Below, in pieces: positions 14,629 through 29,722 of a stretch of DNA of 38,562 bases. Under the pieces are notes generated by a model. It saw only the letters and a program-made list of their open reading frames with translations. It ran no database searches and was not told the DNA's origin. The DNA is from Candidatus Woesearchaeota archaeon (lineage in GTDB: Archaea; Nanobdellota; Nanobdellia; Woesearchaeales; GW2011-AR4). Numbering within the stretch: the stretch's first letter is position 1; each line of letters starts with the position of its first letter. The DNA lies in contig JADHVG010000005.1 in the NCBI GenBank assembly GCA_016784105.1, positions 1 through 38,562 on the forward strand. Direction: 5' to 3'. The position numbers and the translations under genes are program-made.

Positions 14629-15177
14629 ATGGATGCTTATAGTGAAATGGGTGGTGGAGCCCTTTACTTGCAGTATAAGGGAGTTTGGGATATGCAGGAT
14701 TTATACGAATTCATTGCATCTTTTTTCTCAGGTAAAAAATTCAAATTCTATGAAAAAAAGTACATAACTAAGCATCCTAGTCCTTTTGGTCCTGAAACTT
14801 ATTACATTTGGGAAGCAAAGAGGGATGTAGAAGAATATTATAGGTATATGTGTACAATTTTTTTACATACCTATGATACTCAGGATGTTGAAGTTGTTGG
14901 AAAGGATGGAAGCAAAAAGATGTTTACAAAGGGAAGATTATGGATACAAATACAAACAAAAGTTGTCTTGGATTACGATAAGAGATGGGATGAAACTGCT
15001 TTCTACAAAAGCTTAAAGAATTTCTATACTAAGTATGTTATGAAGAAAAAGATAGAAGGGTTGTATTGGGATAATATGTATTATAACGTTCATTTGAAAC
15101 TACATTCGTTGATTAAGGAGCGTCTTAAACTTGAATCAGAGGGTTTTGAGCATAGGTACTTTAACAAGATGAGGTAA
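14629..15177 (+). CDS. Tandem paralogue family, copy 1 (unknown function)
   Basis: 182 residues, rich in aromatic and charged residues, no membrane segment. It aligns by eye with the next two genes: YKGVWDMQDLYEFIASFF at the start, a central W-E-A-K region followed by basic/hydrophobic strands, GRLWIQIQTKVVLDYDKRW, then FYKSLKNFYTKYVM and a C-terminal helix LYWDNMYYNVHLKLHSLIK. The alternation suggests an alpha/beta fold with a beta sheet in the middle. A TATA-like ATTTATATAT near 14595-14604 drives the three-gene operon. I do not recognise a named family. Confidence 0.8.
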   Translation: MDAYSEMGGGALYLQYKGVWDMQDLYEFIASFFSGKKFKFYEKKYITKHPSPFGPETYYIWEAKRDVEEYYRYMCTIFLHTYDTQDVEVVGKDGSKKMFTKGRLWIQIQTKVVLDYDKRWDETAFYKSLKNFYTKYVMKKKIEGLYWDNMYYNVHLKLHSLIKERLKLESEGFEHRYFNKMR

Positions 15178-15178
15178 G

Positions 15179-15724
15179 ATGGGAGAATTAAGAGTAACTG
15201 TTGACCATTTAAGGCTGAATTACGAAGGGCCTTTTGATGCACATGAGTTATACAAACACCTTACCAATTTTATCTATGAAAAAGGATTTGATTTTAGGCC
15301 TGACAAAGAATTCGAGCATGAGCTTCAGAATGGGAAGCATATTGAATGGCTATTAAGACCTTGGAAGCAAATAAGTCATGACATGAGGCAAATAGTAAAA
15401 ATGAAGGTTTTGATATACAATTACAAGAAAGTTGATGCTATTGTTAATAATAAGAAAACAAAAATTGGTAATGGTAAGCTAGTTATGTATTTTGATGGCT
15501 ACATCGATTTTGACCAGTGGAATATGTGGGAACATAAGCCTTTTTTGCAGTTCATAAGAACGGCATATCTTAATTTTGTGCACAAGACCTACACCGAACA
15601 TTTTGAGCAAAGATTAACTAGTGATGTCAATTATTTGTATCATAGTGTTGAAAAGTTTTTGAACATGCACAAACATTACAAGGTTGTTTCAAAAGTATCT
15701 TCTTTCGCTTCAACAGTACAATAA
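15179..15724 (+). CDS. Tandem paralogue family, copy 2 (unknown function)
   Basis: 181 residues. Shares with copies 1 and 3 an N-terminal YEGPFDAHELYKHLTNFIYE, central IEWLLRPWKQISHDMRQIVKM, GKLVMYFDGYIDFD, and the FLQFIRTAYLNFVHK region. It starts one base after the stop of copy 1, with GAGGT overlapping that stop as SD, so the two are tightly coupled. Copies 2 and 3 are closer to each other (IEW, W-K, QIVKM) than to copy 1. No catalytic motif evident. Confidence 0.8.
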   Translation: MGELRVTVDHLRLNYEGPFDAHELYKHLTNFIYEKGFDFRPDKEFEHELQNGKHIEWLLRPWKQISHDMRQIVKMKVLIYNYKKVDAIVNNKKTKIGNGKLVMYFDGYIDFDQWNMWEHKPFLQFIRTAYLNFVHKTYTEHFEQRLTSDVNYLYHSVEKFLNMHKHYKVVSKVSSFASTVQ

Positions 15725-15730
15725 TAAAAA

Positions 15731-16249
15731 ATGGTAGAAAAAAAACAGGTTGTGGATGACCTAATGTATAAATACAACGGCCCTTTCCTAATCGAAGATT
15801 TTTATAAAGAAATTGAATCTTGGATGAACGAAAATGGACTGTTTAGGGATCAAAAAAATAAATCCGAAAAAATTACTCAAAAAGGTAAAAAGATAGAGTG
15901 GGTAGTTGAAATGTGGAAAAAGCCTGTTAATGATGTTAAACAGATTGTGAAAATGCGTGTTTTGATGAATAATGTTAAAGATATAAAATTAAAAAGAAAA
16001 AACAAGACTATTAAAACGAATCAAGCAACCGTCATTATCAACATTGATGGTTGGATTAAAACAATTTTGGGTTATAGGTGGACTTCCGCTCCAGTATATA
16101 CTTTTTTCAGGACCCTTTATGATAAGTATATCTGGCTCATTGGAAGTAATGTTACTGAAGCCAACGAAGGTCCAGTATCCGATCTTTGTTATGATTTACA
16201 TAAACGGTTGAAAGGCTTCTTTGAGCTTTCTAAGATGAAACTGAAATAG
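15731..16249 (+). CDS. Tandem paralogue family, copy 3 (unknown function)
   Basis: 172 residues, shortest of the three. Shared blocks: YNGPFLIEDFYKEIESWMNE, KIEWVVEMWKKPVNDVKQIVKM, TVIINIDGWIKTI, VYTFFRTLYDKYIW, and a C-terminal helix LCYDLHKRLKGFFEL. It starts 6 bp after copy 2. A T-run (CTCTTTTTTAAA) just after the stop could end transcription. Confidence 0.8.
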   Translation: MVEKKQVVDDLMYKYNGPFLIEDFYKEIESWMNENGLFRDQKNKSEKITQKGKKIEWVVEMWKKPVNDVKQIVKMRVLMNNVKDIKLKRKNKTIKTNQATVIINIDGWIKTILGYRWTSAPVYTFFRTLYDKYIWLIGSNVTEANEGPVSDLCYDLHKRLKGFFELSKMKLK

Positions 16250-16867: not shown

Positions 16868-17016
16868 CCTGCGCATTTGACCAAGCTTTGCTACCCCCGC
16901 ATGGAAAAATAAGAAAAGAATTCTCTTTTTAAAGATTGCTAATAGTCCACTGGACATTTACGCGTGAGCTATTTAAACTAAAAAATTTCCCTTATTTTGT
17001 TTTTCTAGTAGGCACC

Positions 17017-17859
17017 ATGAAAAATCAAAATAAACAAGGGAATTTAAAAGAATCAAATAGCATTGCAGAATTCTTAGGCTGGCATTTAGGGGATGGTTGT
17101 TTGAGCGCAAAAAAAGGAAAACTTCAATTTTCTCTGACCGGAGATATTTCTGAAGAAAAAGAGTTCTACACTAAAGAAATTTTGCCAATTATGAATAAAT
17201 TGTTCGAAAAACAATTAAAACAACCATTTATTTTAAAATACTACAGATCTGTAGGAGTTTGTGGAATATATACTGCTAATAAAAAATTTACATCTCATCT
17301 TAGAAAAAGCTTTAATTTGAATGTTGGAAAGAAAAAGAATATTTTCGTTCCAAAATACGTAAAAACTTCCTTACAGAAGAAGAATCTTCTTAGAGGATTA
17401 TTTGACACAGATGGCTCAATCTATTTTTGTAAAAGTTATGTTAAGAGGAAAACGCTGAGTCCTCATAACATTTTTCACTATATCCCTAAGATGAAACTAG
17501 CCACAATCTCTAAGAAGCTTATATCTGACATCTTTAACATGCTCCTAGATTTAGGTTTTTCTCCAAGGATTCAAAAACCAATTCAACAAAGAAAAAATGA
17601 ACTTCCAATGCACTCAGTAGTCATGGACACCAAAAAAGATGTGTTGAAGTGGTTGAAGGAAATAGGATTCAGAAATCTCAAACATAACACTAAAGTAGAG
17701 ATATGGGAGAAATTTGGTTTTTGCCCTCCAAAAACAACTTTAAAAGAAAGACGTTTAATTCTAGAAAATGAATTAGATCCAATTAGTTTCTACCAGTTCA
17801 AAGGATACTCTTTAAATAATCTAAAATCCAAATTTCATCCAGGAACTTCAAAATTATAA
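17017..17859 (+). CDS. LAGLIDADG homing endonuclease, free-standing
   Basis: 280 residues with two LAGLIDADG helices: FLGWHLGDGCLS near residue 20 and LLRGLFDTDGSIYF near residue 128, each ending in the acidic residue that binds the catalytic metal. The body between and after them (ISKKLISDIFNMLLDLGFSPRIQ) fits the two-repeat monomeric type. ATG at 17017 is preferred over TTG at 16936; ATTTAAACT near 16970 is the likely TATA. No intein or intron host is seen around it: it sits between the tRNA-Leu and a convergent Tag-like gene, overlapping the latter's 3' end by 25 bp. The adjacent intron-bearing tRNA is a possible historical target. Confidence 0.9.
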   Translation: MKNQNKQGNLKESNSIAEFLGWHLGDGCLSAKKGKLQFSLTGDISEEKEFYTKEILPIMNKLFEKQLKQPFILKYYRSVGVCGIYTANKKFTSHLRKSFNLNVGKKKNIFVPKYVKTSLQKKNLLRGLFDTDGSIYFCKSYVKRKTLSPHNIFHYIPKMKLATISKKLISDIFNMLLDLGFSPRIQKPIQQRKNELPMHSVVMDTKKDVLKWLKEIGFRNLKHNTKVEIWEKFGFCPPKTTLKERRLILENELDPISFYQFKGYSLNNLKSKFHPGTSKL

Positions 17860-18396: not shown

Positions 18397-18468
18397 GCCT
18401 CCGTGGCTTAGTGGTATAGCGCCACCTTGGTAAGGTGGAGGTCCCGAGTTCAATTCTCGGCGGAGGCT
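18397..18468 (+). tRNA. tRNA-Thr(GGU)
   Basis: 72 nt. Acceptor GCCTCCG/CGGAGGC, discriminator T at 18468. Anticodon stem CCACC/GGTGG around loop TTGGTAA gives anticodon GGU. T arm CCGAG-TTCAATT-CTCGG. No intron, no encoded CCA. TATA-like TTTTTAAAAAC at about 18363-18373 is ~25 bp upstream. Confidence 0.97.
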
Positions 18469-24117: not shown

Positions 24118-26091
24118 TTACTCCATATGCATTGAATGGTCTTCCTGTTCCATTGACTCTGGAACATGTTCCATTTCTGTTGCTTTTTTGTTATACTCAG
24201 TAATTTTTCCTAATAGATCCCTCAAACTTTCAGGAATCTCAAAATTTTCATATAATATAAGCCCTATCATCCCACCTGGATAGAATCCATCATTTGTTAC
24301 GTGAGGAGTTATGTGATCATGGAACACCCACGCCCCTTTGTTTTTCATTCTCATCTCCAAATCGTATCTTTCTCCTGGAAGTATAGGTAAAGTATCCATT
24401 TCCTGTTTGTTTTCAACTGGAAATCCATCTTTATGAGTTACAATAAAAGAATGTCCGTGCATGTGCATCGAGTAAGGTTCTTTGCCCATGTTTATCAGTC
24501 TCATCTTTATTAACTCGTTTTCTTTTACGCTGATTGGAGTTGTTGCTGGGAAAGCTTTTCCATTGATTAGGAAAGCATCTTTCTCTGCTTTGTATTGTGC
24601 ATGTCCACTGAAGTAATCACTTTCTTCAGCTATATGATCATGTTTTTTTGTGTTGAATGAGCTTAACATCCAGACTATTTCTCGATCATATTTTGAATTG
24701 TCCTCAGCAGGATCTTCTACTATGAATGGTCCGTACATTCCCATATCTATGTGATGGTCAGTATCCACATGACAATGATATGCGTGAGTCCCTGATGGTC
24801 CTGCAACAAATTCATAAGTAAAAGTTTCTTTTGGTTTCACTACTTGTTGTGTTATTCCCGGAACTCCATCCATACTATTTTGAACGTGTTGGCCGTGCCA
24901 GTGTATTGTGTGATCTTTATTGTGCTTGTTTTCAAAGATAACCCTTACATTATCTCCTTCATCAACACGTAGTTCTGGTCCAGGAACCTGCCTGTTGAAT
25001 CCCCAAGCCTCCACATACACTCCAGGCCTTATTTCTTTTTTGATTGCTTCAATCCACATTCTGAAAACTTTGATTTCTTTTCCATCTTCATAAATAATTT
25101 CTGGATCCAAAGTAGATTGAGATTCTTCTAAAGGTAGATCTTCAAGTGCTTTTTGATCTTCCATATCACTCATTTCCTCAATCTCATGACTTATATCTTC
25201 CATACCATCCATATCATGATGTCCATCACTATTGTCATGCTCATCCTCAGAATTTTCAGTTGAACTAGAACTTCGCATCGTGTCCTGATTTTCATATGTC
25301 CATTCGTTGGCTTCCCAGCTCTCACATAATTTGTCTGTTGTTTCTGCATTTCCTTGTGAAAATTCAAAGAGGATACAATCTCCAGGAGGAACATTTTGTT
25401 CTGGAGAGGGAACATATTTTTCAGGATTTTCTATTTTTTTTCCGTTGACATAAACTTTTAGGTTTGATTCTTGACCCTTGCACAGGTCTCCTTCTCCATA
25501 GGCTTTTTGACCTTCGTTTGTTGGCAACATTATCAGGTTTTTCTCTAAATGACCCCCTGCAATCTCAAAGTAATTTCCAAGATTTACGTCTTCTAAATCC
25601 ATGACAACCCCTTCTACGTGCATCCGGTCATCATTATGTTCATGCATAACCGAACTTCCTATTTTGTTGGATATTCCTTCCGGGTCAACTAGTTGTAATC
25701 TTTCCCCACAGGCAAATATCTGGTAGTCTGCATGCCAGTGCACTGGTCCCTTAGTCACTGAAGTAGTGTTCAGATAAATTGTGGAACCAGCAAGGTACAC
25801 TGTTGCAAATATTACCGGTAGAGCTATTCCTAAAAAAAGAATCCAATTTAAGCTCTCAGATCGTTTCTTAAGAAATATTGAGAATAAAACCAAAGCAAGA
25901 ATAAAGATGCTTGTTACTATTACATATGCCACCGATTTTGATTTAAGGACTTCTGCCATGCTTTCTTCTTGAACTTCCACATGCCCATCTTCTTCTCCAT
26001 GTGCATACACCCCTAAAACTCCTATAAGAAACACAACTAGTAAGATAAGAAACTTATAATTTATATTAAGAAATGTATTGTTAGTACTCAA
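24118..26091 (-). CDS. Membrane-anchored multicopper oxidase with extra N-terminal His domain
   Basis: 657 residues. Hydrophobic segments at ~13-30, 54-74 and 82-103; an extracytoplasmic domain at ~115-265 with VHWHADYQIFACGE and HEHNDDRMHVEG; an acidic His/Met/Asp-rich linker at ~270-325; then a two-cupredoxin oxidase. Copper motifs are HWHG (397-400), HCH (439-441), HMHGH (543-547) and HDH (591-593). The only type 1 site (C440, H446/447, M450/452) is in cupredoxin 1; domain 2 has no Cys. So it is a laccase-like two-domain oxidase with type 1 copper in domain 1. Start is TTG at 26091, supported by SD GAGGT 6 bp upstream and no in-frame ATG before the membrane segments. Confidence 0.9.
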   Translation of the reverse strand: MSTNNTFLNINYKFLILLVVFLIGVLGVYAHGEEDGHVEVQEESMAEVLKSKSVAYVIVTSIFILALVLFSIFLKKRSESLNWILFLGIALPVIFATVYLAGSTIYLNTTSVTKGPVHWHADYQIFACGERLQLVDPEGISNKIGSSVMHEHNDDRMHVEGVVMDLEDVNLGNYFEIAGGHLEKNLIMLPTNEGQKAYGEGDLCKGQESNLKVYVNGKKIENPEKYVPSPEQNVPPGDCILFEFSQGNAETTDKLCESWEANEWTYENQDTMRSSSSTENSEDEHDNSDGHHDMDGMEDISHEIEEMSDMEDQKALEDLPLEESQSTLDPEIIYEDGKEIKVFRMWIEAIKKEIRPGVYVEAWGFNRQVPGPELRVDEGDNVRVIFENKHNKDHTIHWHGQHVQNSMDGVPGITQQVVKPKETFTYEFVAGPSGTHAYHCHVDTDHHIDMGMYGPFIVEDPAEDNSKYDREIVWMLSSFNTKKHDHIAEESDYFSGHAQYKAEKDAFLINGKAFPATTPISVKENELIKMRLINMGKEPYSMHMHGHSFIVTHKDGFPVENKQEMDTLPILPGERYDLEMRMKNKGAWVFHDHITPHVTNDGFYPGGMIGLILYENFEIPESLRDLLGKITEYNKKATEMEHVPESMEQEDHSMHME

Positions 26092-26306: not shown

Positions 26307-27038
26307 ATGGTCTTAAGAATAGTTATTAACAAGGAAGGGAAGAAATTTTTGGTTAAAGATACTTCTCAGGACCTTCACACCCAATATGGTTTCCTAAAGA
26401 AAGAAGATCTCAAGAAAAAGAGTGGGAGTAAACTAGTTTCTAATACCGGTAAAGAATTCTCAATTTTTGATGCTAGATTCATTGACTTATACCGGAAAAT
26501 AAAAAGAGGAGCCCAGATTATTCCTCTCAAAGATATTGGGTTAATAATCTCGGAAACAGGTATAAGTAAAAAAAGCAAAGTTCTTGATTCTGGGTCTGGG
26601 TCTGGAGCAACTACCTGTTTCCTTGCAAACATTGTGAAGGAAGTTATTAGTTATGAAATAAGGGAAGATTTTTTTAAAATAGTTGAGAAAAATATCAAAA
26701 ATTTAGGATTAAAAAATGTCAAATTAAAACATAAGGACATATATCTCGGAATTTCTGAAAAAAATTTGGATCTTATCGTTTTAGATCTTCCTGAGCCGTG
26801 GAAAGTAATCGAACATGCTGCTATTTCATTAAAACCCGGGGCTTTTCTTGTTTCTTACAGCCCAACCATTCCCCAGGTTATGGATTTTGTGGATGCTATA
26901 AGAAAAAATGAAAAATTTTCTTACTTAAAAACTTCTGAGATAATAGAACGTGAGTGGGAAGTGGAAAGCAGGAAGGTACGTCCAAGATCTCAAGCTATAG
27001 GTCATTCAGGATTTCTTAGTTTTGTTAGAAAAATCTAA
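26307..27038 (+). CDS. trmI: tRNA (adenine-N1)-methyltransferase TrmI
   Basis: 243 residues. The N-terminal beta domain is followed by the RGAQIIPLKDIGLIISETGI segment typical of TrmI, the SAM motif VLDSGSGSGATTCFLA, and LIVLDLPEPWKVIEHA, the D-L-P-x-P-W catalytic region; the end REWEVESRKVRPRSQAIGHSGFLSF is also a TrmI signature. Archaeal TrmI makes m1A at positions 57 and 58 of tRNA. TATA-like ATTTATAAAG lies ~25 bp before the ATG: leaderless. Overlaps the convergent NurA-like gene by 4 bp. Confidence 0.92.
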   Translation: MVLRIVINKEGKKFLVKDTSQDLHTQYGFLKKEDLKKKSGSKLVSNTGKEFSIFDARFIDLYRKIKRGAQIIPLKDIGLIISETGISKKSKVLDSGSGSGATTCFLANIVKEVISYEIREDFFKIVEKNIKNLGLKNVKLKHKDIYLGISEKNLDLIVLDLPEPWKVIEHAAISLKPGAFLVSYSPTIPQVMDFVDAIRKNEKFSYLKTSEIIEREWEVESRKVRPRSQAIGHSGFLSFVRKI

Positions 27039-28084
27039 CTGATTGTGTCAAGAATTTCATGTGCGTCCGTGCTGGTTAATGATTCTTTTATTTTTTCCCA
27101 TTCTTTTCCAAATTTGACACTAAGATAAGTTTGCATTGTCTTCTTTTCTTCATTAGAAACACGAGCGTGCCTGTCTGCATCTATCAGCCCGTAAGGGTAT
27201 CCTACAAAAACTGAATCTCTTGAATTTTCCGAGAGTAAAGAGATAACCTCCAATAATTTACTTTTTTGTTCTTTGAATATTTCAAATCTAAAAGCATATT
27301 TTGATTTATCATGTAATTTTACAAATGCCATCTCTGCCCTATGATCTTTGCTTTTTATGTCTGCAACCGGATGATATGCCCATTTTCCTTTAACATTAAA
27401 ATTATTCAACACATTTAGGATAGAGTTTCCTTTGTCTGTCATCAAAGTAGTAGTTTTGCTTAATCCAGTCACAATAACCTTTTTTTCTGAAGCCGTTCCC
27501 AATAGTTTATCCATATACTTCCTTTCATTTGTGAGGGTGCACTGTAATGACCCATCTAAAACTATCATGTCTCCTTCATCTAGCTGGCCTACCAGGCAAC
27601 ATGCTAATTTTAATTCAGAAAATCTTCTTATTAAATTAGAAACATTGGAAACACTTGCTCTGTTTATACCTTGAGTTATTGTTTTGTCAAAAGAACTTAC
27701 AAGTAAATCTTCTTTTTCTGGAACTGTTTTTTCATTGGTTCCTATAATCTCAGTTTCGTAAGATATTTCATTATTGACACTCTTAGCTTTAGTTAATGAA
27801 TAAAAATCTTTTTTGGTTGATTTTATCTTTTTGTGTCCTGAAAAAATGGAATAATAAGTTCTTATGATGTTAAGAGAAAAATTAGCAGACCTCACAATTT
27901 CTGCATTGCCTCCGTCTATAAATGCTATTTTATTTTCTTTTTCTGGCTTTTTTAGGGTATTGAAGTTTTTCCTGTCAAATTTATGTGCTTGATAGTTTGT
28001 GTCTGAGAACTTCACATAGTGGTCATCACTTTCAATAGTTGCATCCTTTACCAACTCTACCACCCTCTTAAAAACGTCTTCCAT
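27035..28084 (-). CDS. NurA-like 5'-3' nuclease
   Basis: 349 residues. NurA motifs: IAFIDGGNAEI (D57), MIVLDGSLQC, and GYPYGLIDADRHARVS near the C terminus. NurA works with HerA helicase in DNA end resection; no herA is visible here. The metal-binding Asp residues seem kept. Assignment rests on motif order; a NurA-domain protein with another role is possible. Confidence 0.8.
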   Translation of the reverse strand: MEDVFKRVVELVKDATIESDDHYVKFSDTNYQAHKFDRKNFNTLKKPEKENKIAFIDGGNAEIVRSANFSLNIIRTYYSIFSGHKKIKSTKKDFYSLTKAKSVNNEISYETEIIGTNEKTVPEKEDLLVSSFDKTITQGINRASVSNVSNLIRRFSELKLACCLVGQLDEGDMIVLDGSLQCTLTNERKYMDKLLGTASEKKVIVTGLSKTTTLMTDKGNSILNVLNNFNVKGKWAYHPVADIKSKDHRAEMAFVKLHDKSKYAFRFEIFKEQKSKLLEVISLLSENSRDSVFVGYPYGLIDADRHARVSNEEKKTMQTYLSVKFGKEWEKIKESLTSTDAHEILDTIS

Positions 28085-28124: not shown

Positions 28125-29135
28125 TTAAATAGAATAAATATTTTGTCTTGTATCTTTAAGATAAGGCTGTATTGTTATGAGTTTTTTTCCCAGAAGAATT
28201 TCCAGTGCATTCCTAACCGTTCTTTCAGGCAAATAAGTTTTGTTTATAATTTCTTTTTGCGTGAGATTGTTTTCATAAGATAATATGTTGTATATTAATT
28301 TACAGCTTGCCGGCAAATTTTTTGTCTTCTCCATGCGTGCTACGATTGTCCTTTTCTTTAGTTTATCTTCCAAAACATATTCTTTTGAAAATTGCACAAA
28401 GCAAGCATCATATCTCGATTTTTCAATCTCTACTTTGTCTTTTCTTATGGGTATTCTTATGTTCCCATCCATGATTGCTATTGGCAGGGTAGCGTGTATA
28501 TTGTCCACAACTATCTGGGAATTGTTCCTTATTATCATTGATGATTTTTTTTCTATTGAGGAGATAGGGGTTATCGACAATACTTCTGGTTCCTCAAGAA
28601 TTATCGGACCGTGAGCACTGTACGAATATCCTGTACTTCCGGTTGGTGTGGATATTATTAACCCATCCGCATTATCTTTCCATAAAAACTCATTGTTAAT
28701 GTTTAAATTATACCTTATCAAAGAGGCCGATTTTGAGGAAAATATTCCTATGTCGTTCAAGGCAGAGTATTTCTTGTTGTCTACTCTCGCAACCAATCTT
28801 GCTCTTCTAAAAACATTAAATTTTCCTTTGAGGATAAGGTCTATATGTTTTTCATAGTTATTTGTATCGGATTGTGCAAGAAAACTTTGCTCTGCTGAAA
28901 TTCCTAAAACCGGAATTTCTCTTTTCTTTAAATCGTGAAAAGTTTTCAAGATAGTATTATCATCTCCCACCACAAATATGAGTTTAGGATGGGATTCATT
29001 CAATGATTTCCTGTTTCTGGAAACGTTCAATTCTTTGTCAACTTCTACCATAGCTTTTTTTTTATGAAGGTAACTAACTATTTTCTTTGTAAGTTCTAAT
29101 GAGGCATGGTCCTTTTTGCTTGTTAAATAGTACAT
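28125..29135 (-). CDS. nadK: NAD-kinase-like protein fused to winged-helix domain
   Basis: 336 residues. The C-terminal half of the kinase domain is intact: ADGLIISTPTGSTGYSYSAHGPI and PISSIEKKSSMIIRNNS. The N-terminal half is degenerate: the GGDGT motif reads VGDDNT (catalytic Asp kept, two Gly lost), GINxGxLGFL reads GISAEQSFL, and the NE motif reads ND. Residues ~270-336 are a winged helix (LIYNILSYENNLTQKEIINKTYLPERTVRNALEILLGKKLI). It may still make NADP or may be an NAD(P)-sensing regulator. A perfect palindrome overlaps its TATA box. No other NAD kinase is in the window. Confidence 0.82.
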   Translation of the reverse strand: MYYLTSKKDHASLELTKKIVSYLHKKKAMVEVDKELNVSRNRKSLNESHPKLIFVVGDDNTILKTFHDLKKREIPVLGISAEQSFLAQSDTNNYEKHIDLILKGKFNVFRRARLVARVDNKKYSALNDIGIFSSKSASLIRYNLNINNEFLWKDNADGLIISTPTGSTGYSYSAHGPIILEEPEVLSITPISSIEKKSSMIIRNNSQIVVDNIHATLPIAIMDGNIRIPIRKDKVEIEKSRYDACFVQFSKEYVLEDKLKKRTIVARMEKTKNLPASCKLIYNILSYENNLTQKEIINKTYLPERTVRNALEILLGKKLITIQPYLKDTRQNIYSI

Positions 29136-29177
29136 ATTGCCCCTATTATGTTAAAAAATATAAAAATATTACTATTT

Positions 29178-29196
29178 ATAGGCAAAATTTGCCTAT
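29178..29196. promoter_or_regulatory. Perfect 9-1-9 palindrome at the nadK-wHTH promoter
   Basis: ATAGGCAAAATTTGCCTAT. On the - strand it abuts and overlaps the TATA/BRE (CCTATAAATAGT) of the NAD-kinase/wHTH gene, whose ATG is at 29135. Related half-sites TTGCCT at 29220-29225 and GGGGCAAT at the gene start (29135-29144) suggest an operator for a dimeric regulator, perhaps the fusion protein itself. Confidence 0.55.
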
Positions 29197-29266
29197 TTTT
29201 CTCTATCTTCTGTTCCAAATTGCCTGTTCAAATAACTATTTTAAAAAGAAATAACAGAAGAGGTAC

Positions 29267-29722
29267 ATGGAAAGTCTGACAGACATTGTGGAAACAGAAA
29301 AAGGTAAAAAAAAAGATGCTGATTATTTGGATAAATACATTTTCGAATTGATAAGGGCTTCTGAAAAATATTTTTTCTATGTTAAACTTATCGAAAAAGA
29401 CAAAAAAGAAAAATCAGTTTCTAATGAACTGAGTATTGTTGAAGAAAAATCTTTTTTTGATGTGTTCTTAGATGAAGAAACTGAAGAGGGGGAAAAAGAA
29501 CTGATTGTTGTTGAAGATGATATCTCTTACAAAGTGGAAACCCCTAAAAGAACAGACTCGGGATACAAAGTAGAGAAACCAAAACAACAAACTCAAGAAC
29601 TATGGGAGAAAGAAGGTTTTTACCAGACCAAAACAACACAATCTCATGTCAGTGTCCAAATATGGCCAGAGCATTCATTTTATGATCATTTTAAGAGGAG
29701 AAAAGCTTTCTTGTTCTGTTAA
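29267..29722 (+). CDS. Acidic protein, unknown function
   Basis: 151 residues. A helical, Lys-rich N-terminal half (DADYLDKYIFELIRASEKYFFYV) is followed by an acidic stretch (FLDEETEEGEKELIVVEDD), two short repeats (YKVETPK, YKVEKPK) and an aromatic C-terminal part ending in FLFC. SD AGAGGT precedes the ATG; TATA-like ATTTTAAAAAG near 29238-29248. It diverges from the NAD-kinase fusion and precedes topA by 38 bp, but topA has its own TATA. Not recognised. Confidence 0.7.
   Translation: MESLTDIVETEKGKKKDADYLDKYIFELIRASEKYFFYVKLIEKDKKEKSVSNELSIVEEKSFFDVFLDEETEEGEKELIVVEDDISYKVETPKRTDSGYKVEKPKQQTQELWEKEGFYQTKTTQSHVSVQIWPEHSFYDHFKRRKAFLFC

Follow-up and report, generated by a model that had tools for sequence, protein, structure and literature searches.

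The window analysed here is a stretch of 38,562 nucleotides (contig JADHVG010000005.1 of assembly GCA_016784105.1) from a Candidatus Woesearchaeota archaeon, whose genome comprises 1.19 Mb and is 83% complete. One of its open reading frames encodes a protein of 336 amino acids, named REG in this work, and the features that belong to this gene and to the intergenic region before it are collected in Table 1. The order and the strand of the neighbouring NurA nuclease gene vary among relatives, and this gene is not clearly part of the system.

Several features of the window lie away from this locus. They include three tandem, paralog-like genes of about 175-180 amino acids without Pfam family (14629-16249, plus strand), a free-standing LAGLIDADG-type ORF (16936-17859, plus strand) located about 540 bp before a tRNA-Thr gene (18397-18468), and a large multicopper oxidase of 657 amino acids with an N-terminal membrane region (24118-26091, minus strand), encoded in a small archaeal genome.

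Table 1. Genes, protein regions and DNA elements of the REG locus (positions in the window)
Feature	Position	Strand	Basis or remark
NurA nuclease gene	27035-28084	-	Pfam NurA, 8e-11; next gene on the REG strand
REG, proposed NAD-kinase-derived regulator gene (336 aa)	28125-29135	-	ORF; both NAD_kinase domains of Pfam
C-terminal winged helix, residues 265-336, MarR/TrmB-like (TQKE, LPERTVR, wing DxRQ)	28128-28343	-	HMM matches; structural model
NAD kinase fold (residues 1-250), putative sensor of NAD(P)	28386-29135	-	Pfam; sequence and fold matches in the PDB
TPTGSTGY, residues 163-170, NAD-binding region II	28626-28649	-	Family alignment; nearly invariant
GDDNT, residues 57-61, equivalent of GGDGT	28953-28967	-	Alignment of 25 members; degenerate across the family
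Likely REG TATA box (leaderless gene)	29150-29170	-	A/T run about 25 bp before the ATG
TATAAATA noted in the preliminary description	29173-29180	-	Overlaps the palindrome edge; not in all orthologs
Perfect 9-1-9 palindrome ATAGGCAAAATTTGCCTAT	29178-29196		Two arms around a central A
Conserved core GGCAANNNTTGCC of the palindrome	29181-29193		Kept across orthologs
Second half-site (TTGCC on plus, GGCAA on minus)	29220-29224		31 bp from the palindrome; -47 of the divergent promoter
TATA box of the divergent promoter (nadA promoter in relatives)	29238-29248	+	Centred at -24.5; position shared with relatives that have nadA
Small gene ending in AFLFC (151 aa, no Pfam family)	29267-29722	+	Occupies the nadA position of relatives

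A NAD kinase fold joined to a winged helix

Pfam recognises in REG the N-domain (residues 29-106, E=4e-8) and the C-domain (NAD_kinase_C, residues 126-248, E=1.6e-20) of NAD kinases and, apart from these, only a weak helix-turn-helix (HTH). The AlphaFold2 model (mean pLDDT 82) ends in a helical domain at its C-terminus. When this model was compared with solved structures by Foldseek, NAD kinases were retrieved, such as the Pseudomonas protein 7qvs (E=1.5e-25) and the Archaeoglobus protein 1suw, and there was no significant fold match among viral structures. The best NCBIfam matches are NAD kinases as well, far under the cut-off (137 bits against 493).

The preliminary description of this DNA had placed a winged helix at the end of the kinase, and profile searches bear this out. 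With matches counted at E up to 0.01, the C-terminal 70 residues or so match HTH_24 in all nine members tested, and MarR_2 and TrmB in six of the nine each. MarR structures were retrieved by a sequence profile of the domain, and the MarR-type wing motif D-x-R is present in it; the last 15 residues (the wing, 322-336) are modelled with low confidence. The winged helix is one of the most conserved parts of REG. A stretch matching this domain alone (G071:C10:54094-54273, 39% identity, an open frame of 72 amino acids) was observed in another genome, about 6 kb from its canonical NAD kinase.

Two of the kinase motifs are altered, as had been reported from the sequence of the window. GGDGT reads GDDNT in REG, and GGDG is absent from every member of an alignment of 25 REG proteins, in which the position of the catalytic aspartate is occupied by D (15 members), S (6), N (3) or T (1); the window protein and 14 other members retain it (Asp59 in the former). 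GINxGxxGFL is replaced by LGISAEQSFL, which is one residue shorter. The change of the NE motif had also been taken as a sign of decay, and this reading was rejected: the short motif is NE/D in working kinases (PMC8553519), and ND is common among the canonical bacterial NAD kinases aligned here, although some of these rows were recruited with an ALND pattern. The NAD-binding half is intact, as claimed, since the family shows no variation at the N of ALND/ALNE, at an Asp-Gly pair or at the GST core of TPTGSTGY.

In the enzyme LmNADK1, Asp45 takes the proton from the 2'-hydroxyl of NAD, and the Asp of GGDG is vital in both LmNADK1 and Ppnk (PMC8553519). REG keeps the NE/D short motif and the conserved region II of catalytic NAD kinases and lacks their GGDG with its catalytic Asp, this residue being lost in 10 of the 25 members. 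A loose ATP and catalysis side together with a fixed NAD side is the pattern expected of a sensor, and most likely the kinase fold has lost phosphorylation and kept the pyridine-nucleotide pocket. Weak kinase activity may persist in the window protein, since the catalytic Asp is kept in it and in 14 other members.

It had been left to be seen whether the genome has a second canonical nadK. It does: this NAD kinase (G000:C53, 263 amino acids) has GGDGT and NE intact and an unusual region II, SSAAGSYAW. It may resemble mitochondrial NADK2. Phylogenetically its place is among other DPANN NAD kinases, and REG stands apart from these enzymes in the tree. REG is not the only nadK of the genome, and the presence of the second enzyme makes it dispensable as the NAD kinase of the cell. 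This bears on the idea of a bifunctional enzyme-repressor of the NadR kind, that is, an active NAD kinase with a second role in the control of its own synthesis and of nadA (see below). The Asp kept in 15 of 25 members, Asp59 of the window protein among them, and the intact NAD pocket agree with such a protein, and NadR shows that dual proteins exist (PMC12421817). The idea is nevertheless improbable, because GGDG is missing in all members, 10 of 25 carry Asn, Ser or Thr in place of the Asp, the GINxG motif has disappeared and the same genome provides a second kinase with GGDGT.

In the archaeal family to which the window belongs (Nanoarchaeota, DPANN), REG occurs in at least 21 of 36 genomes. 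Further REG genes were found in another family of the order (f23; the G057 ortholog, 34% identical) and in two families of the class, namely f82 (seven genomes) and f101 (G212); a contig scan gave one REG (L089, on the same contig as G018), the rest being ordinary NAD kinases. In a tree of 68 rows every REG row lies on one side of one branch (support 72), and a single origin is likely. REG is under purifying selection (dN about 0.2, dS saturated), also between genomes that lack nadA. In G003 the REG frame (L015, G003:C37:64918-65881) is broken between residues 264 and 281, which could be an assembly error or decay.

A two-part operator shared with NAD biosynthesis genes

The palindrome first noticed at the REG promoter is indeed a perfect 9-1-9 repeat, ATAGGCAAA-A-TTTGCCTAT (29178-29196). 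A search for more palindromes, proposed at the same time, gave no other place within two mismatches in the genome of the window; with three mismatches allowed, shuffles of the window give 0.09. The three-mismatch palindromes of this genome are inside genes or between unrelated genes, and they were discarded as sites.

The core GGCAANNNTTGCC is found upstream of 21 of 22 orthologs, and in the remaining one, G057, a version with a single mismatch lies at 43 bp. By chance, as estimated from dinucleotide shuffles of these 22 upstream regions, 0.014 occurrences would be expected in total. Within the family, the centre of the palindrome lies 50-52 bp (around 51) before the REG start codon in 21 of 21 orthologs. 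The half-site GGCAA starts 30 or 31 bp from the palindrome, about three helical turns, in all 22 upstream regions, and at most loci the divergent start codon follows at 46-48 bp from the half-site and about 80 bp from the palindrome. REG combines, as is expected of winged-helix transcription factors, the DNA-binding domain with an operator conserved at its own promoter.

All 22 upstream regions contain an A/T run whose centre precedes the REG start codon by 23-29 bp. With such runs at about -25 of both start codons, REG and the divergent gene look leaderless, and one operator element is located immediately upstream of each core promoter. The proposed overlap between the palindrome and the TATA box of REG holds only in part: TATAAATA does overlap the palindrome edge, but the CCTATAAA adjoining the palindrome is missing in several orthologs, and the likelier TATA box is the A/T run mentioned above, downstream of the palindrome. 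Since the operators lie at about -45 to -57, off the -25 boxes, REG could equally well act as an activator or as a repressor.

In 17 of the 21 REG-bearing genomes of the family the divergent gene is nadA (quinolinate synthase, PF02445, E about 1e-120, best 3e-121), followed by nadC (PF02749, PF01729). Beyond nadC, the loci that were read further contain nadX (aspartate dehydrogenase, PF01958), a nadB-like gene (PF00890), the NAD synthase gene nadE and a NadM-like nucleotidyltransferase. Among the 36 genomes, 17 have both REG and nadA, four only REG, three only nadA and 12 neither (Fisher p=5e-4, a guide value only, as the genomes are related and incomplete). Two of the genomes with nadA and without REG, G002 (two nadA genes) and G021, do not have the palindrome; in the third, G032, nadA lies at a contig end, and palindrome and half-site are both present. 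In family f82, pncB (PF17767/PF04095) adjoins REG, followed by pncA (PF00857), nadE (PF02540) and, in one case, nadK. In f101, nadK and a NadM-like gene adjoin REG, and QRPTase-family and pncA-like genes and nadE are also present. The GGCAANNNTTGCC palindrome was not found at the REG loci of f82 or f101. REG shares its regulatory region with NAD biosynthesis genes, and its linkage to de novo genes in one lineage and to salvage genes in others fits a regulator of NAD metabolism and not a fixed enzyme partner.

These data weigh on another reading of the gene, in which REG is an ordinary NAD kinase that carries an accessory domain at its C-terminus and the palindrome is the site of a different regulator. 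NAD kinases are the best NCBIfam matches of REG, though at the low score given above, and NAD genes also cluster on metabolic grounds. Nevertheless, the palindrome tracks REG, being missing at the nadA genes of G002 and G021, its distance of 51 bp to the REG start is fixed, and few parts of the protein are as conserved as the winged helix, all of which makes an ordinary kinase very unlikely.

No wider regulon was found when GGCAANNNTTGCC was searched over the 36 genomes, where the copies off this locus are almost all inside genes; of the few intergenic matches outside the reg-nadA region, some belong to genomes that have no REG. A second target of REG may exist in G031 (L187, position 1570, contig C59), where an intergenic GGCAAATATTGCC with an adjoining TATA-like run lies between two genes that match no Pfam family. 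Similar intergenic palindromes, with TTTGCCGAG as the flank, were noted near proteasome-, GatD- and PGK-like genes (L183, L191 and L193) of three genomes, in two of which REG was not found; they are probably another element. The nadM promoters of four genomes without nadA and of one with it carry no operator and at most a single half-site.

NAD biosynthesis in the genome of the window

Neither nadA, nadC, pncB nor a true nadE was found in the genome of the window (83% complete), and the same holds for three relatives (G001, G003 and G011), two of which are 95-96% complete; these genes appear to have been lost in the four genomes. The genome of the window keeps REG, the operator, the second NAD kinase and nadM. 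NadM and NAD kinase are also kept in the three relatives, and a dependence on imported NMN, NR or NAD is probable for these four organisms.

The divergent position is occupied in the window by the small gene ending in AFLFC, whose start codon lies at the nadA spacing. This gene is confined to four genomes with REG and without nadA, and it is found in none of the other 32 genomes of the family. The four genomes do not form one clade on the REG tree, which indicates that the exchange between nadA and this gene happened, or was reversed, more than once. In the genome of the window REG probably controls itself and the AFLFC gene; as a guess, the latter could take part in obtaining NAD precursors.

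REG could also be, in this genome, a relic that is decaying or without function, its targets having gone. The genes nadA, nadC, nadE and pncB were not found in the four genomes, as such a relic would have it, and the REG frame of G003 is broken. However, strong purifying selection acts between the nadA-less genomes (dN 0.2, dS saturated), the perfect palindrome, the half-site and the divergent TATA box are retained, and a conserved small gene starts exactly where nadA does in relatives, so that decay is a poor explanation with little chance of being right.

Proposed mechanism and comparison with known regulators

Our preferred reading is that REG is an autoregulatory transcription factor of NAD biosynthesis, made from a NAD kinase and sensing NAD(P), and a probability of roughly 0.8 is given to it. 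The proposal of a NAD(P)-sensing factor derived from NAD kinase, made from the window alone, is supported by the operator present in every one of the 22 orthologs, by the linkage to nadA-nadC or other NAD gene clusters and by the second NAD kinase. Several points weigh against it: the window protein and 14 other members keep the catalytic Asp, the main proposed targets were not found in the genome of the window, GGCAANNNTTGCC is missing in f82 and f101, the branch that unites the REG rows has a support of only 72, and the frame is broken in G003. Sequences display the fusion, the loss and retention of motifs, the two-part operator of fixed spacing and the divergent nadA-nadC genes; from them we infer DNA binding, the ligand, the loss of catalysis, the oligomer and the sign of regulation. 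The NAD kinase fold, having lost phosphorylation, would act as NAD(P) sensor through the kept pyridine-nucleotide pocket. The C-terminal winged helices of a REG dimer would read GGCAANNNTTGCC just upstream of the promoter of REG itself, and a further pair of subunits may reach the half-site, which is three helical turns away and directly precedes the divergent nadA promoter. On binding NAD(P), REG would change its interaction with DNA, and nadA-nadC and reg would be adjusted to the size of the NAD(P) pool, either by activation at low NAD(P) or by repression at high NAD(P).

The molecule sensed could instead be another compound of the pathway, such as NaMN, NaAD, NMN or ATP. The residue two before the invariant Asp, often Arg, Lys or Gln in canonical kinases, is variable in REG, and among known regulators NAD and ATP are the signals for NadR, and a response to ATP has been described for NadQ (PMC12421817). 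Against this, it is the classical NAD-binding motifs that have been conserved in the domain, and a ligand other than NAD(P) is considered rather unlikely.

Four types of transcription factors are known to repress genes of NAD synthesis or salvage: NadR, NiaR, NrtR and NadQ (PMC12421817, 2025). NadR, from Escherichia coli and Salmonella, is like REG a protein of NAD metabolism enzymes with an HTH, and it represses NAD genes, nadA included, in answer to NAD and ATP (PMC12421817). However, NadR consists of an N-terminal HTH, a NMN adenylyltransferase and a NR kinase, whereas REG has a NAD kinase fold and a C-terminal winged helix; the set of domains of NadR is not found in REG, and the two proteins have no Pfam domain in common. 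NrtR and NadQ also join an enzyme-derived sensor to a winged helix, and MsNrtR, which controls de novo NAD genes, is also its own repressor (PMC6800001). Their sensors, described in bacteria, are Nudix (NrtR) or Nudix-like (NadQ), whereas that of REG is a NAD kinase; no Pfam match to a Nudix domain was obtained in REG at E up to 10. NiaR is a repressor of NAD biosynthesis genes (PMC7713382) that responds to niacin and, unlike REG, lacks a NAD kinase domain.

REG resembles the NAD kinases themselves (PF01513/PF20143; LmNADK1, and 1suw of A. fulgidus) in fold (Foldseek E to 1e-25), NE/D motif and region II, and it differs from them in the loss of GGDG(T) and GINxG, the added winged helix and the presence of a second kinase in the same genome. 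With regulators of the MarR/TrmB type it shares the HTH_24, MarR and TrmB HMM matches, the DxR wing and a palindromic operator by its own promoter. Only the DNA-binding domain is common to both, while dimerisation and sensing in REG would come from the NAD kinase fold.

Neither a transcription factor derived from NAD kinase nor an archaeal NAD regulator was found in the open-access papers searched. On balance we lean towards REG being a fifth class of NAD biosynthesis regulator and the first in archaea, in which the NAD kinase fold has been turned into a transcription factor dedicated to sensing NAD(P), with a two-part divergent operator, the nadA promoter having been taken, in NAD-auxotrophic lineages, by a gene that may serve the acquisition of NAD or NMN from a host. 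If this is true, REG would add a new fold to the sensors of the NAD(P) pool and illustrate the evolution of an enzyme into a regulator, and it would offer a prediction (site, partner gene and geometry) for DPANN archaea, in which gene regulation is almost unstudied. A reader of NAD(P) with a kinase-type pocket would be a possible part of biosensors, the lineages without NAD synthesis and with the switch would allow the fate of a regulator after the loss of its pathway to be studied, and the gene at 29267-29722 would be a candidate for NAD-related dependence on a host. REG would work like NadR and NrtR, with an enzyme-type sensor joined to an HTH and control of both its own gene and the pathway; it is nonetheless outside the NadR and NrtR/NadQ families, and the motif by which catalytic NAD kinases are defined is missing from it.
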